A DNA stretch of 64,000 nt from Candidatus Saccharimonadota bacterium (lineage in GTDB: Bacteria; Patescibacteriota; Saccharimonadia; Saccharimonadales; Saccharimonadaceae), in NCBI GenBank assembly GCA_030528625.1, contig JAUMYN010000001.1, forward strand, positions 62,001-126,000, given 5' to 3'. A model generated the notes under the pieces. It was not told the origin of the DNA. It worked only from the letters and a program-made list of their open reading frames with translations, and searched no databases. Position 1 is the first letter of the stretch. Each line of letters starts with the position of its first letter. Shown piece after piece: positions 11,340 to 53,553 of the stretch. A program made the translations under genes and the position numbers.

Positions 11340-12800
11340 CTAACGATCCAGCCCAGCAGCAATGTGAGGGTAGTTTTGCTTGAACTCTTCGGGGGCTGGT
11401 AGCCCGGGGAGCTCTCTACGGAACCGTCTATAAAAGGCGCTATAATAGCTGCTTGTGTCCGCTAATTCATCAGTAGCCGCACTTGCTTTGGTAAGCCAGT
11501 CGTGTACTTGTTGCAGTACGCGCTCGGCGTGTTCTGTACTGTCAGCCGAAAAAAGATTATTTACGATAGCTGTAAACGCGACGCTTTGTATGGTCTGGCA
11601 GACAGAAGAGGTATAAACTGGTTCGATGATCTTGGAGTCGAGTGCTTGTCGAAAGCGATGACGCTGCTCTTCTTCCCGCTGTGCGGCGACACCAACTTCG
11701 ACGCCGGTGACTAGGTTATAAAAGGATTTCATGGCCTCGCTGCGAAGAATGTTGGTGCGCTGCCGTAGCTCCTGGAGTTTGCACATATTGTCACGTCGGG
11801 TATCAATACCTGCCTGGCGCCGAGAGAGGTGATTTTCCTCGGCGGTACCGTAGGCATCTGCGGCAGCGCGATACTCGTTAAAGGCGCGAATAAATGATTC
11901 AAGGGGTACGACGCAGGTGTCAAGTTGTTCGTTGGACAGGGGTGTTGGGGTACCGTCTATAGTAATGATGCCGAGCGCTAGATCTATAAGGAATAGCCGG
12001 GATGAATAAAAAGACGGGTTCAAATTGGACCGCTCTAGTCGCCCATTCATGACTGACTGGTCTTTGGTCGATATGGTATTAAGGTCAAGCGTTGCGGCGT
12101 CGTGCTTTAGTGTGTCATACGCCGCATCCAGTAAGTCATGGAGCTGCTCGACACTGCCACCATAGCCGAACCTCGTTCGCAGGCGATTGACGACATAGGC
12201 GCTCCCCAGGCTTGCAGCGGCAACGACGCCGCTGATAATCGGATGGGGCTGCAGTGCTGCGTGCTCTACTGCTGTCAGTGCAGCAGCAAAGAGGCCTGCG
12301 CCGCCAAGCTCTGCGACCATCCTTTGACGGCGGAGCACCTCGTCGCTCGCTTGGTTTTTGTGAAGGGAATTCTCCGCTTCTCTTAGCGTCGCAATGACGG
12401 GGCTGCCAACATTGATAATAGGGAGGCTTTGCGGGTCACGGCTAAAAACGCAAATGGGATGATTGGGGGGAGAGACGTAAATCTCGTTCTCGGGGCAATC
12501 ACGTGAAGACCATATCACGTTAAGGTATAGTCTTCGTCGAAAATATTCGTAGGTTTTCATGGTGCTGCCTGGCTTCCAATCTGGAGTGCAAGCAATAGTC
12601 GGTTCATTGATGAAGGTTTGGGTTATATTCCGGTTTAGACCTACATATCTGTCATCGGCGACAGCCCGTAGGGCTGAAAGACGGCTCAGCTGCCGCTTCG
12701 CCCGCGTCGAAAGAGCGCCATCAACCACCCACGGATGATTCACTGGTGACTCTAATGGAGTGAATTGACCTTCTGGGTGCTGTGTGGCTTCTCCTGACAT
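11340..12800 (-). CDS. uncharacterised protein, tandem paralogue 1
   Basis: A 486-residue protein of unknown function, paralogous to its downstream neighbour. Conserved shared blocks are HPWVVDGALSTRAKRQL (N terminus), SPPNHPICVFSR (about 125), a hydrophobic double segment including GLFAAALTAVEHAALQPHP, and FYRRFRRELPGLPAPEEF at the C terminus. The central third is helical and charged. Divergence is high, with similarity confined to blocks, so the duplication is not recent. Each copy keeps its own promoter of identical geometry, so they are separately transcribed although only 42 bases separate stop and start. No catalytic motif is visible. Confidence 0.75.
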   Translation of the reverse strand: MSGEATQHPEGQFTPLESPVNHPWVVDGALSTRAKRQLSRLSALRAVADDRYVGLNRNITQTFINEPTIACTPDWKPGSTMKTYEYFRRRLYLNVIWSSRDCPENEIYVSPPNHPICVFSRDPQSLPIINVGSPVIATLREAENSLHKNQASDEVLRRQRMVAELGGAGLFAAALTAVEHAALQPHPIISGVVAAASLGSAYVVNRLRTRFGYGGSVEQLHDLLDAAYDTLKHDAATLDLNTISTKDQSVMNGRLERSNLNPSFYSSRLFLIDLALGIITIDGTPTPLSNEQLDTCVVPLESFIRAFNEYRAAADAYGTAEENHLSRRQAGIDTRRDNMCKLQELRQRTNILRSEAMKSFYNLVTGVEVGVAAQREEEQRHRFRQALDSKIIEPVYTSSVCQTIQSVAFTAIVNNLFSADSTEHAERVLQQVHDWLTKASAATDELADTSSYYSAFYRRFRRELPGLPAPEEFKQNYPHIAAGLDR

Positions 12801-42255: not shown

Positions 42256-42822
42256 CTACTTAGTAAACCCTCCCACGACATAAGCTGTCTTAGGGTTTGC
42301 CGACCAGTCGAGTCCATCACATCGCCATCCTGGCGACTCATCAAAACGCTGAGCCTTCGTGCTATATATGCGTAAAACATAAAAATCGCCTCGGCTAGCA
42401 TCGCAGCCCTTTGATCCTGCTGGGTAGCGGAAGTATTCATAGTGGGCATCTCGTGAATTTTCAGGATCAACTATCGTTTTACTGCCAAGGTAGGGCTTGA
42501 GAGACGAGAGAAATTCCGAAGGACATGCATGGGATGATTCCCAGGAATCAGCGTGGCCTGATACCGCGCGACACCTCAAATCTCCCGTTGCTGGGTATTC
42601 TCCGTTTTTTGTCTTGTATACCTCCAGGGCCTTCTGTAGTTGTGTGGCGTCGTTCAGTCTACGGGTTTTAAGTGCATCCCCCTTCATCCAGCTATATGAT
42701 ACGACTACGATTGCTGCGAGTATTGCTATCACTACGATAACTACGATTAACTCGACTATAGTAAAGCCTCTCTCTCTGTGTGTGTGTGTGTGATGTCTCT
42801 CATATAAGCAAGTATAAAGCAT
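42256..42822 (-). CDS. type IV prepilin with a dinucleotide-repeat leader
   Basis: A 188-residue prepilin when read from ATG 42822 (an ATG at 42828 is also in frame). The leader MLYTCLYERHHTHTHRERG is followed by FTIVELIVVIVVIAILAAIV, a canonical pilin helix with Glu5, then a globular domain with several Cys. The His-Thr and Arg-Glu part of the leader is encoded by a (CA)8-(GA)5 tract at 42768-42792. The leader is unusually long. A better-placed promoter (TTGCAG-18-TATACT) points to ATG 42803, which is in another frame and would be in frame with the pilin only after loss of one dinucleotide. Confidence 0.85.
   Translation of the reverse strand: MLYTCLYERHHTHTHRERGFTIVELIVVIVVIAILAAIVVVSYSWMKGDALKTRRLNDATQLQKALEVYKTKNGEYPATGDLRCRAVSGHADSWESSHACPSEFLSSLKPYLGSKTIVDPENSRDAHYEYFRYPAGSKGCDASRGDFYVLRIYSTKAQRFDESPGWRCDGLDWSANPKTAYVVGGFTK
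42768..42792 (-). repeat. (CA)8-(GA)5 microsatellite in the prepilin leader
   Basis: On the plus strand this is (CT)5 at 42768-42777 and (TG)8 at 42777-42792. It is the only such tract seen in the window, it sits between the start codon and the prepilin cleavage site, and its unit is not a multiple of three. Confidence 0.9.
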
Positions 42823-42840
42823 AACCATCTTCCTCTGCAA
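42811..42840 (-). promoter_or_regulatory. promoter pointing to out-of-frame ATG 42803
   Basis: -35 TTGCAG (42840-42835), 18-base spacer, -10 TATACT (42816-42811), seven bases to ATG 42803. An alternative upstream -10, TATAGT (42852-42847), would give a leadered mRNA with GAGGA at 42835-42831 and ATG 42822. Confidence 0.5.
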
Positions 42841-42951
42841 GATAAAACTATAAAAAGAGACATGTATTGGTTGACGCCGCCGAAACCATAAGCTATACTA
42901 GGATCACTGATTAGAACAGGGCATAACATAAAACAGGAAAGAGGGGATTAT

Positions 42952-45834
42952 ATGAGGAGGGGATTAACCATTAAGCGGCGCACTGGGCTATTGTGCAGCG
43001 CCTTGATTGTGGCAGCTGTTGCAGCGATGCCACTACTGCTCCAGCAGTCGCCGCGGGCGCGGGCTGATGCTATCAATGCGACGGATTTCGTCATTACCAT
43101 TGACACTACCAAAACACAGAACGGAAGCGGTACTGACCGGGAGTTCAAGATACCGATTGTTGGCGGCACTCGTCCCTATAACTACACAGTAGACTGTAAT
43201 AATGACGGTGTGCTTGAGGCGACTGGTCAGACTGGCAATTATACCTGTTCGTATGCTGCTCCAGGCATATACAAGGTTCGCATCGGCGGCGAATTTCCGC
43301 GGTTTCGTTTTAATATAGCTAAGGAAGAACTGAAGCTTGTCTCGGTTGACCAGTGGGGCACCATGCAGTGGGAGAGATTATCAGATGGTTTCCGCGGCGC
43401 CAAGAACATGGACCTGCTGGCAACCGATGTACCCGACCTCACGCGAGCAACTTCGCTGAATGGACTATTCTTTGATGCGGAGTCCCTGAAGGGCGAGGGT
43501 GCCAACTGGAACTGGAATACCGCAACCATTACCGACATGGGCAGCGTGTTTGGCGGCGCAAAACTGTTCAACCAGCCGCTGCCATGGAATACTTCAAACG
43601 TCACAACCATGTCGTTTATCTTTAGTCGAGCCAGCGCCTTCAACCAGCCGCTCAATCACTGGGATGTCTCAAAAGTGCAAAACGGTCTTGCTATGTTCCA
43701 ACTAGCAACGTCGTTCAACCAGCCACTCACCAACTGGCAGACAGGGGCGATGACCGATGTTAGGTCGATGTTCCAAAATGCCCGTGCCTTCAACCAGCCG
43801 CTTGATAGTTGGAATATGTCGAATGTCACCAATATGGCAAACATGTTCCAGACTGCCCGTGCCTTCAACCAGCCGCTGAATAGTTGGCAGGTGGGTAAGG
43901 TGACTAATATGGCCGATATGTTCCAGGGTGCTGATTCCTTCAACCAGCCGCTTGATAGCTGGGACGTGTCAAAGGTGACCAATATGAGCAGGATGTTCTC
44001 CCAGGCGGCCGCTTTTAAGCAGTCGCTGGCGGCCTGGGATGTCAGTCGGGTCACCGCTGCCACTGACATGCTCGACAATACCAAATTGTCTGTGGCGAGC
44101 TACGACGCTACGTTGATCGCCTGGAATGCTAGGCCGCTTCAGAAAAATGTGGCATTTGGCGCGCGGTCGTTGAAGTATTGTGCGGCCACTGCTGCCCGCG
44201 CTAACATGACAAGTCCGACTGGCTACGAATGGACGATCAGCGGCGATACCAGACAATGCCCAACATTTACGCTGACTTTTGATACGCAGCAAGGTACGCC
44301 TGTTCCGCCAATGCAGCAAGTAGAGCAGGGCGCTTTGGCGACCAAGCCGTCAGACCCAAGTCGGCCGGGCTTCCGCTTCGGCGGGTGGTATACCGGGCTT
44401 GATTATGCTGAAGAGTGGGATTTTGCAGTCAATACTATGCCGGCACAGGCGACGACACTGTATGCTCGGTGGATTGATGCACAGGCTCCAGCGGCGCCGG
44501 CTGCTGCACCGGATTTGGTTGACAGCGACGATAGCGGCGACAGCAACACTGATAATGTGACCAATCTCCGGCGTCCGTCATTCACGCTGCACTGTAGCGA
44601 GGCGGGCAGTAGAGTATTATTGTATGTAGACGGCACGCATGTCGGTGAAGCTATTTGTCCAACGATCGGCGACGTTACTGCTGCGCCAACGGTCGATTTG
44701 AGCGAGGGCGCGCGAGCTATCACCTACACCGAAGCTGATGCCACGGGCAATGAGTCGCCGCACTCTCCTTCCTTGACTATCACGGTTGATGCCACGCCGC
44801 CTACCCCAGTCATCACTCTCGACAACATTGCTGGTGATAATGTTATCAATAATACGGAGGCTGGAAATCCTCAGGTTGTATCGGGTACGGTGACCGGAGG
44901 TCGTCAGGGTGATCCGATAACGGTGACGGTGAACGGCGTGTCGCATAATGCACAGCTAGGGGCTGACGGAAGTTTCAGGGTTGTTGTTCCTGGTAGTGAT
45001 CTCGTTAATAATGCCAGCCTTCAGGTCATTGCTAAGGTTGTTGCTTATGACGTTGCTGGTAATAGTCGTGAGGCTCAGACTGTACGAGCGTATACTCTCG
45101 AGACCGGCACTATCCCTGCGCCAGCCACGCCGGTACTGCCAGCCAGCTCAGATAGCGGTAGTAATAATTCTGATGGCATCACCAACGATGCCACTCCAGC
45201 CGTAACACTGCAATGTCCAGCGGCAGGCAGCAAGCTCTATCTCTTTGTTGACTCGCATCAAATTCAGACGCTCAACTGTGCGTCTACCGATCCAATTGAG
45301 GTGGTTCTGCCAGCACTAGGTGATGGCGTCCATACCGTTGCTTATCGCTACGAAACGCCAGCTGGTAATCTTTCCACCGGCTCGTCATCCCTGTCTATTA
45401 CTGTCGACACGGGAGCGCCGATTGGTACGGCAGTTGATACGGTAGCAGCTACTCCATCGCCAGAGTTGAGCGGTACTGTAGACGATGCGGGCGCGCAGAT
45501 CATGATAGCCATTGAGGGGCGTCAGTTCGCGGCTCGCAATAATGGCAATGGCACATGGACCCTACCTCATGGCGTGCTCGTTCCTGCCTTGGCAGTTGGT
45601 ATTCATCCGTTTGAGGCGTCATTTACTGATATTGCAGGAAATGTGTCGACGGTGCGCGCGGTGCTTACCATAAAAGCTGCCCCAACAGGTACTGAGCAGC
45701 CGGCTGCTCCAGCAACACCTAATGCACCACAGCGGTTGAGCGATACTGGCGGCAATCTCTGGACGGCAGTGCTCGCGGTGTTGGGCTGTCTGGTTGGCGG
45801 CTCAGTGCTGCTCGTACGCGCTAAACGCGCTTAG
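42952..45834 (+). CDS. BspA/DUF285-type surface protein with sorting signal
   Basis: A 960-residue exported protein. Signal peptide with RR (about 1-40); a PKD-like start (GGTRPYNYTVDCNNDG); seven DUF285 leucine-rich-type repeats of 24-25 residues (about 206-380), each beginning FNQPL; an InlB-type repeat (about 440-505, PGFRFGGWYTG to TLYARW); then Ig-like domains (about 510-920) with TVDTGAPIG-type linkers. The C terminus LSDTGGN, a hydrophobic helix and RAKRA tail resemble an LPxTG anchor. DUF285 proteins are adhesins in oral and mucosal bacteria and mycoplasmas. ATG 42952 has GAGGGG upstream. Confidence 0.9.
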   Translation: MRRGLTIKRRTGLLCSALIVAAVAAMPLLLQQSPRARADAINATDFVITIDTTKTQNGSGTDREFKIPIVGGTRPYNYTVDCNNDGVLEATGQTGNYTCSYAAPGIYKVRIGGEFPRFRFNIAKEELKLVSVDQWGTMQWERLSDGFRGAKNMDLLATDVPDLTRATSLNGLFFDAESLKGEGANWNWNTATITDMGSVFGGAKLFNQPLPWNTSNVTTMSFIFSRASAFNQPLNHWDVSKVQNGLAMFQLATSFNQPLTNWQTGAMTDVRSMFQNARAFNQPLDSWNMSNVTNMANMFQTARAFNQPLNSWQVGKVTNMADMFQGADSFNQPLDSWDVSKVTNMSRMFSQAAAFKQSLAAWDVSRVTAATDMLDNTKLSVASYDATLIAWNARPLQKNVAFGARSLKYCAATAARANMTSPTGYEWTISGDTRQCPTFTLTFDTQQGTPVPPMQQVEQGALATKPSDPSRPGFRFGGWYTGLDYAEEWDFAVNTMPAQATTLYARWIDAQAPAAPAAAPDLVDSDDSGDSNTDNVTNLRRPSFTLHCSEAGSRVLLYVDGTHVGEAICPTIGDVTAAPTVDLSEGARAITYTEADATGNESPHSPSLTITVDATPPTPVITLDNIAGDNVINNTEAGNPQVVSGTVTGGRQGDPITVTVNGVSHNAQLGADGSFRVVVPGSDLVNNASLQVIAKVVAYDVAGNSREAQTVRAYTLETGTIPAPATPVLPASSDSGSNNSDGITNDATPAVTLQCPAAGSKLYLFVDSHQIQTLNCASTDPIEVVLPALGDGVHTVAYRYETPAGNLSTGSSSLSITVDTGAPIGTAVDTVAATPSPELSGTVDDAGAQIMIAIEGRQFAARNNGNGTWTLPHGVLVPALAVGIHPFEASFTDIAGNVSTVRAVLTIKAAPTGTEQPAAPATPNAPQRLSDTGGNLWTAVLAVLGCLVGGSVLLVRAKRA
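43567..44088 (+). repeat. seven tandem 72/75-bp DUF285 repeats
   Basis: Units start at TTC codons at 43567, 43639, 43714, 43789, 43864, 43939 and 44014, spaced 72 or 75 bases apart. Each opens with TTCAACCAGCC or a close variant. The last unit is degenerate (FKQSL). The array is inside the surface protein gene and could change copy number by recombination. Confidence 0.9.
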
Positions 45835-51836: not shown

Positions 51837-53489
51837 CTATGGGTGAAACTCGTTGAGCCATTTTGTTGCTATGTCGCGATTCGAGCTATCCGTCAGTTCG
51901 TATATAACACCCGTTTTGGCGTTCTTTCCCAGGCGCAACACTTCATTTATCGATTCAATAATTGTGGCGTGGGTAAGAAAAATATAATTATCCAGCGCAG
52001 AGCCTACTGCAAAGTTTGGTGGTATGCCATCATTTAGCATATAAAAGTAATTGTTATCATTTTTATATTTTGTAATATATCTGCCTATTTTTGTTTTTTG
52101 ATATTCTTCTGATAAGTAATCTAAGAGAAACTCATCTTCACTAGATGTTGCGACAACTATAAATAAGCCGTTTTTCATGCTTCTAAAATTATGAATGTCA
52201 AGACTATGTGATCCTGTCGCGCAGAATACAATATCTGTAGCAGATAGGTCGGGGTTGAGGGCTATATTATTCCCGTCCCTCGAGGCGATAATTGAACGAA
52301 GGGGATTTTTTTCGATGACTGTAGGCGTTACTCCAACACTCCTGAGGTGCGCACAGATGCCTCGGCCGATCTTACCATAACCGATACACGATACTTTCAT
52401 GTAGTTTAATAAGGTATTTTCAAGTCTAAGCATGTAGCTTGCGCCAAATACTATCCCCGACCCTACAAGAAAGTCTTCACTCTCTTTTAGGGGGTTTCTA
52501 GCAACGGAGAATACAGGGTATTTTACTTTTGAGATGATTGAGTTGTATTTCTGATGTCCGTTTTCGGTGTCCTCAACAATGCCTATAATAGGTAAACCGC
52601 CACCGGCTGCTAGCTTAGCAAAGTAACCACCGATATCCAGTAAGATTGTTGGCTTGTCTTTAATTCCAAAGAACAACTCTGCGTTGTCTGGATCTCTCTT
52701 GGCTACTCTAAGTTTAATCCCCGCAGACTTTAGCTCATCCCATACAGATTGGTCTATCGAGTTTGGTTTAGCGAAGATAGTCAAGTCGTCTCTAAATATA
52801 TCATCCAGAAGATAAATAAAGGGTAGGCTATTTCGCACTATGTGCTGAATGGCTATACACGATATGTCCTGCTGTTTCCTTGCTATATCTGACAAGAACC
52901 TCCTTGGGGACGGCTCCATTAAATCTTCTATCTTGTTCGCTATATCCCTAAACTTAGCCATCTCCTTAAATTGACTCCACTCCACCCATTCGAAAGAGCT
53001 AGATTCAGACTTGTCAATTGTGATACTTGGCTCCTTTTCGCTCAAGAATAGATATTGCATGTCGTAGTGGTAGTGTGCCGCTTCTTGTTTCTTCTTGTTC
53101 TCGGGAATGGAATGAATGTCAATATTAAAGGGTACCTGTCTGTCTAGGGGACTAACGCAGTGATACTTCAGGCTAGCTATGTCTACACCAGACTCCTCAG
53201 CTAGTTCCCTCGCTGCTGCATCAAGGGGTGTGTTGTCACTTACTTCAATGTGCCCTCCTGGTTGGAGGTATTTCTTCAGAAAAGTATGGTGGATGAGTAA
53301 TACTCTCCGTGGGGCTTTTGTGATAACAAATGCTGATGCTGTAAAGTGGCCAATGAAATTCTTACGGTCTATTAGCTCCCTATCGCTCTGATTCGACAAC
53401 TGTTTTTTTACTAAACAAAATTTATTATCGGAGGTCTCATAGTAGGATGAATAGCTGTCAAAAATTTGTCTGTATAGATTTGCTGTCAT
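51837..53489 (-). CDS. NUDIX domain fused to adenosylhomocysteinase-like domain
   Basis: A 550-residue two-domain protein. Residues about 45-180 form a NUDIX hydrolase: QPGGHIEVSDNTPLDAA then ARELAEESGVDI, the box intact at REUxEExG but with Asn for the first box Glu. Residues about 200-550 resemble S-adenosylhomocysteine hydrolase, best seen in the NAD-binding fold CIGYGKIGRGICAHL, VIEKNPLRSIIAS and DIVFCATGSHSL, then MKNGLFIVVATSSEDEF. The SAHH catalytic N domain is poorly conserved. Base composition is clearly more AT-rich than both neighbours, suggesting acquisition. Start ATG 53489 has AAGGAGG upstream. Function unknown. Confidence 0.8.
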   Translation of the reverse strand: MTANLYRQIFDSYSSYYETSDNKFCLVKKQLSNQSDRELIDRKNFIGHFTASAFVITKAPRRVLLIHHTFLKKYLQPGGHIEVSDNTPLDAAARELAEESGVDIASLKYHCVSPLDRQVPFNIDIHSIPENKKKQEAAHYHYDMQYLFLSEKEPSITIDKSESSSFEWVEWSQFKEMAKFRDIANKIEDLMEPSPRRFLSDIARKQQDISCIAIQHIVRNSLPFIYLLDDIFRDDLTIFAKPNSIDQSVWDELKSAGIKLRVAKRDPDNAELFFGIKDKPTILLDIGGYFAKLAAGGGLPIIGIVEDTENGHQKYNSIISKVKYPVFSVARNPLKESEDFLVGSGIVFGASYMLRLENTLLNYMKVSCIGYGKIGRGICAHLRSVGVTPTVIEKNPLRSIIASRDGNNIALNPDLSATDIVFCATGSHSLDIHNFRSMKNGLFIVVATSSEDEFLLDYLSEEYQKTKIGRYITKYKNDNNYFYMLNDGIPPNFAVGSALDNYIFLTHATIIESINEVLRLGKNAKTGVIYELTDSSNRDIATKWLNEFHP

Positions 53490-53553
53490 GTCTACGCCTC
53501 CTTTTTCACTGCTTCTACTCATGCGATTATATCATAATGAGCCCGTTTACGAA

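Follow-up and report, generated by a model that had tools for sequence, protein, structure and literature searches.

A dinucleotide microsatellite in the leader of a predicted type IV prepilin: a likely phase-variable pilin in a Saccharibacteria-type genome

Pathogens, Neisseria and Haemophilus among them, provide the classic examples of phase variation by repeat slippage. In Haemophilus influenzae, the contingency loci lic1A, lic2A and lic3A carry (CAAT) repeats together with several ATG codons in different frames, and at hifA/hifB a (TA)n promoter spacer places a fimbrial gene under dinucleotide control. For the Neisseria pilin gene itself, we know of no leader-located dinucleotide tract. 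The gonococcal pilin varies by recombination (PMC4877100), and in the Neisseria phasome it is surface genes that simple sequence repeats render phase-variable (PMC7371114, PMC5953494). In ultrasmall epibionts, type IV pili serve host binding and motility; N. lyticus TM7x has several pilins, some of them nonessential, and one of its pili aids host binding (PMC12206443). Slippage has also been discussed for a CPR surface gene, the hypervariable repeat gene of a Gracilibacterium (PMC6851277). Save for that gene, whose repeat is of a different kind, no paper on phase variation in Saccharibacteria or Patescibacteria was found in the literature searched, which excludes most subscription journals.

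How does the present locus compare? The window, by which we mean the whole 64,000-nucleotide stretch that was analyzed, holds a prepilin gene whose leader contains a dinucleotide microsatellite. Its features are as follows.

42847..42852, minus strand: possible second -10 box, TATAGT, which could drive the SD-led start (inferred from the sequence)
42835..42840, minus strand: -35-like TTGCAG, 18 nt from the -10 box
42831..42835, minus strand: SD-like GAGGA, 8 nt before ATG 42822
42820..42822, minus strand: upstream ATG, in frame at (CA)8, with an 18-residue leader before the Gly
42811..42816, minus strand: -10 box TATACT, 7 nt before ATG 42803
42801..42803, minus strand: leaderless-type ATG, off-frame at (CA)8 and in frame at (CA)7 or (CA)10
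42777..42792, minus strand: (CA)8 microsatellite in the prepilin leader
42769..42776, minus strand: (GA)4, continuing the (CA)8 tract to the Gly of the cleavage site
42256..42822, minus strand: gene for a type IV prepilin of 188 aa (start at ATG 42822) or 194 aa (start at TTG 42840)
42952..45834, plus strand: divergent neighbor encoding a 960-aa surface protein with PARCEL/DUF285, List_Bact and Big_13 (Ig-like) repeats

Judged by its amino-acid sequence, the window protein is a type IV prepilin with a class III signal peptide; there are no experimental data on its processing by a peptidase or its assembly into a pilus. It matched PF07963 at 31.4 bits (cut-off 21.2) and TIGR02532 at 27.2 (cut-off 16.3), and the solved structures that it matched were those of GspG, PilE and PilA. 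It has the G^FTxxE cleavage motif expected of a type IV prepilin and, behind it, a hydrophobic helix; the mature pilin is predicted to start after the Gly codon at 42768-42766. A single-sequence AlphaFold model displayed a long N-terminal helix (residues 4-55), albeit at low confidence (mean pLDDT 62.6). The large adhesin-type surface protein that had been claimed to adjoin the gene is indeed there: it is the 960-aa neighbor, whose C-terminal end consists of LSDTG and a hydrophobic tail.

On the minus strand, ATG 42803 is followed by AGAGACAT, (CA)8, (GA)4 and GGC TTT ACT ATA GTC GAG; the codons from 42768 thus read Gly-Phe-Thr-Ile-Val-Glu, the prepilin cleavage site. The original prediction had described the tract as (CA)8(GA)5. 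Its (CA)8 portion stands, but a recount on this strand yields only four GA units. The promoter arrangement that it proposed, TTGCAG-18-TATACT-7-ATG 42803, has the spacings given, and this ATG is off-frame with the pilin: its distance to the Gly codon is 35 nt, two bases out of register, and in the assembly its frame reads MRDITHTHTEREALL and then a stop, 15 codons in all. The accompanying arithmetic is also sound, as the loss of one unit, to (CA)7, would place ATG 42803 in frame with an 11-residue leader before the Gly. So is the claim that the assembled state can be read from ATG 42822 with its GAGGA site; at (CA)8, and again at (CA)11, the pilin frame is shared by ATG 42822, ATG 42828 and TTG 42840. 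All candidate starts lie on one side of the tract and the cleavage site on the other, a position in which a change in unit number alters the frame. Because the window pilin has no in-frame start between the tract and the cleavage site, the tract must be translated whenever this pilin is made.

These considerations presuppose that both leaderless and SD-led starts are used in this genome. Boxes preceding the first ATG were scored by whether an ORF of at least 100 aa began there. Against a baseline of 669 of 7,478 (9%), a TATAAT-like box 6 nt before the ATG was followed by such an ORF in 60/81 cases and a box 7 nt before it in 20/40. Most other spacings of the -10 box scored 4-25%, with 41% at 9 nt. 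Strong SD sites marked ORF starts in 89/161. Both types of start are far above the baseline and are therefore credible in this genome, which substantiates the original prediction's reliance on the two. By the leaderless-gene rule, which asks for an ATG preceded at 6-7 nt by a -10 box, ATG 42803 qualifies as a putative start, although the 5' end of the mRNA has not been mapped.

The tract is rare in its genome. A whole-genome pattern search of the 788,276 bp found no other (CA) run of at least seven units. The census of simple sequence repeats comprised a 464-kb sample plus whole-genome pattern searches; the sample contained three dinucleotide tracts of at least seven units, that of the window included, and no repeats with a unit of 3-8 at the thresholds used. 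Simulated sequences of the same size, generated to match the local composition, contained no dinucleotide tract of at least seven units in 20 runs each of order-3 and order-5 Markov models. The window tract thus meets the criterion for a contingency locus of being a perfect short repeat longer than chance would provide.

The second of the three tracts, (GA)8, was observed inside a SAM methyltransferase gene (L048:2237-2948; G000:C3:328237-328948), and the frame breaks exactly at the tract. One Pfam model is matched by both halves, at its positions 1-43 and 60-95, in relatives a single unbroken ORF matches both halves, and the gene would be in frame at (GA)6 or (GA)9; this genome thus probably has a second phase-variable gene here. 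The third, (AG)7 (L056 around 12250-12300; G000:C2 near 102.27 kb), makes up most of a 19-nt spacer between TTGACA and TATTAT in a promoter region 56 nt upstream of a lipoprotein-like gene, and looks like a promoter-spacing switch. All three tracts occupy positions that govern frame or spacing; each long dinucleotide tract found therefore sits where a change in unit number would alter expression. A separate peculiarity of the window is a minus-strand gene at 51837-53522 with a NUDIX-like N-terminal part (by eye) in a low-GC stretch. The GC content at 52-54 kb is about 43%, compared to about 54% for the genome, and the gene region was probably acquired horizontally.

Prepilins bearing tracts recur among relatives. 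A pattern of six CT units within ~60 nt before GFTxxxE was scanned over 84,980 species genomes and returned 18 stretches, including Saccharibacteria 49-20 and 47-87, a Parcubacterium and unassigned bins; the reversed control pattern had 0 matches. Several of these sequences reappeared in a search of the window genome's own family, and versions of the same start-tract-cleavage-site layout with GA units are also present. Low-count CT matches in Planctomycetes, Lentisphaeria and Burkholderiales (L125, L137-L139) were rejected as chance-level or different, and that at L130 as a CT/AG palindrome. One genome (G185; L133, L128 and L176, on C10 and C13) has at least seven tract-bearing prepilins, most of them in one cluster. 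Their layout is a -10 box, a leaderless ATG, AAAAAGCGT or similar, (CT)7-17, the leader and the cleavage site, and only one of these CT-tract prepilins is in frame in the assembly. At 8 units, compared to 7-17 in the relatives, the tract in the window is of modest length, a point against the switch reading. Since the units differ (CT, GA or CA) while the position is the same, repeated independent gain is indicated.

Frames were tallied by taking the nearest ATG before the tract as the start; some members are paralogues of one genome and hence not independent. Only 4/23 tract-bearing prepilins were in frame, or 4/21 in a strict tally without L131 and L136, where a stop comes directly after the nearest ATG and a further ATG, in frame, stands behind the tract. 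By contrast, among the loci analyzed, the ATG was in frame in 25/26 tract-free prepilins with a -10 box (p about 1e-8; Fisher p about 2e-8 when the 23 are taken); the leaders of these are mostly 2-9 residues long. A count of 4/23 is consistent with the random third that slippage would be predicted to leave and not with an ordinary coding leader. The window locus itself has no near-identical copy in its genus or in the 295 family genomes sampled, and tblastn of genome contigs with the window pilin found no relative. The homologues of the window pilin that were read upstream (38-51% identity) have no tract; this too speaks against the switch, and the pilin lineage probably did not carry the tract ancestrally.

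The only near-identical pair of loci at hand concerns an analogous prepilin, not the window locus, and its members are exactly two repeat units apart. Saccharibacteria 49-20 (G121, C1:133.6-153.9 kb) and 47-87 (G110) have in common a 20.3-kb island of 99.84% identity, set in dissimilar flanks. Apart from differences at one island edge, which are confined to the first hundred bases, the sole indel is 14 vs. 12 CT units upstream of the prepilin. The other difference is a group of 13 substitutions within 98 bases at the 3' end of the same pilin. That 3' end (the tip) is the variable region of a diversity-generating retroelement: the template repeat lies at G121:143817, 14 of 19 mismatches fall at a template A, and genes for a reverse transcriptase and bAvd adjoin it. 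Both places at which the island changes fast therefore belong to one pilin, one being its repeat and the other its retroelement target. As an in-frame ATG follows the tract in 49-20 and 47-87, its effect there may be on the 5' sequence and not on the frame.

Long tracts were also observed in other kinds of gene. At L075, L080 (G074) and L076 (G267), (CA)7-8 lies within hsdS-like genes for type I restriction specificity or where such genes are broken; these are likely phase-variable restriction systems in Saccharibacteria. At L077:1487-3013 (G028), an AAA ATPase gene begins with ATGGACCCCACT and, directly after it, (AC)10, and its ATG is off-frame, a start-proximal layout like that of the window prepilin. 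(GA/TC) tracts of at least seven units are present in 52/295 family genomes. Three genomes (G011, G020 and G076; L098, L101 and L182-L189) have more than 100 (GA)7 pattern positions each, with GA tracts of up to ~32 units, and several of the GA tracts that were read come right behind the start codon of a gene for a surface protein of signal or membrane type.

Must the window tract be a switch? The assembly is readable from ATG 42822 with its SD site, and hence a fixed in-frame leader is possible: the tract would be a stable, always-translated part of an oddly long leader initiated at ATG 42822 or 42828, and no switching would occur. The open frame at (CA)8, the GAGGA 8 nt upstream and the commonness of SD-type starts in the genome accord with this explanation. 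However, it calls for a leader unlike the short ones of the family's tract-free prepilins, and it renders TATACT-7-ATG within that leader a coincidence. The mostly off-frame tract-bearing prepilins of relatives and the switch positions of the genome's two other tracts also count against it, and we deem it unlikely. An assembly or sequencing slip is another possibility, in which the true genome has (CA)7 and its pilin gene is an ordinary leaderless one from ATG 42803; assemblers do err at dinucleotide tracts, and one unit fewer yields exactly that gene. Yet mixed reads would themselves show variability, and (CA)7 would still be the genome's longest CA run, in the sole place where it controls the frame. 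We give this explanation very little credence. Finally, the tract could act on transcription or mRNA structure by tuning the 5'-UTR or promoter, leaving the frame aside; the ATG after the tract in the related locus of 49-20 and 47-87 and the (AG)7 promoter spacer of the same genome lend it some plausibility. The absence from the window of an in-frame start after the tract, which obliges the tract to be translated with the pilin, makes it barely tenable here.

We return to the reading of the original prediction, that the window gene is a type IV prepilin rendered phase-variable by slippage, and hold it to be quite probable, with the switching and the repeat-number variation at the locus being inferred. 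It is well supported by the recurring start-tract-cleavage layout, by the mostly broken frames, by the two-unit difference within the near-identical pair of related loci and by the two further tracts at switch positions. That the two starts constitute a switch in expression level is an inference.

Under the slippage reading, the leader would gain or lose CA (or GA) units when replication slips, and no MutS was detected in these cells. MutS domain I (MutS_I) was not found in 35/35 family genomes, while a control search was positive in 11/14 well-known genomes; with no MutS found, slippage should be frequent. With each such change, the frame of the cleavage site would shift relative to the start codon. 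Prepilin would be made from the leaderless ATG 42803 if n is 7 or 10, only from the upstream SD-led ATG 42822 or 42828 if n is 8 or 11, and from neither start if n is 6 or 9. A clonal population would thereby become a mix of cells with the pilin on, differently expressed or off, and this mixture would probably vary the epibiont's engagement with host bacteria. Slippage at the window locus, the use of both starts and promoters, and the effect on host attachment are all inferred. A broader proposal, for and against which we see about equal odds, is that Saccharibacteria (perhaps Patescibacteria more widely), having no detectable MutS, have repeatedly and independently placed dinucleotide tracts between a leaderless start and the cleavage site, sometimes in pilin clusters with one member in frame and sometimes with retroelement-diversified tips. 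The window pilin would then be a three-state member of a pilus phasome that randomizes host binding.

Because type IV pili are used in host binding and motility, random pilin switching, if true, would give a minimal genome cheap variation in attachment and escape; it would also explain the broken pilin frames in assemblies. The idea is directly testable with reads, since repeat lengths can be counted in existing metagenomes. N. lyticus TM7x belongs to the same broad group as the window genome, and the paper on its pili describes no repeat-based phase variation; neither "homopolymer" nor "frameshift" appears in it (PMC12206443). That its pilins are partly nonessential and that one pilus aids host binding nevertheless make pilin switching biologically plausible. 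The Gracilibacterium gene is unlike the window locus, as it has an in-frame 9-mer repeat with synonymous variation and no on/off switching (PMC6851277). In the Neisseria phasome, too, hypermutation is localized to the simple repeats of surface genes and changes either the frame or the promoter spacing. The hifA/hifB spacer resembles this genome's (AG)7 promoter spacer, whereas the window tract lies in a coding leader and not in a promoter. As at the lic loci, the repeat is just inside the coding start, and the frames of alternative starts allow more than two expression states. The lic loci differ in having tetranucleotide repeats, in LPS genes with SD-led starts; the window, from a Saccharibacteria-type genome, has a dinucleotide tract in the leader of a prepilin whose gene has a leaderless start. 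These differences notwithstanding, the window locus is predicted to work like the contingency loci of Haemophilus and Neisseria.
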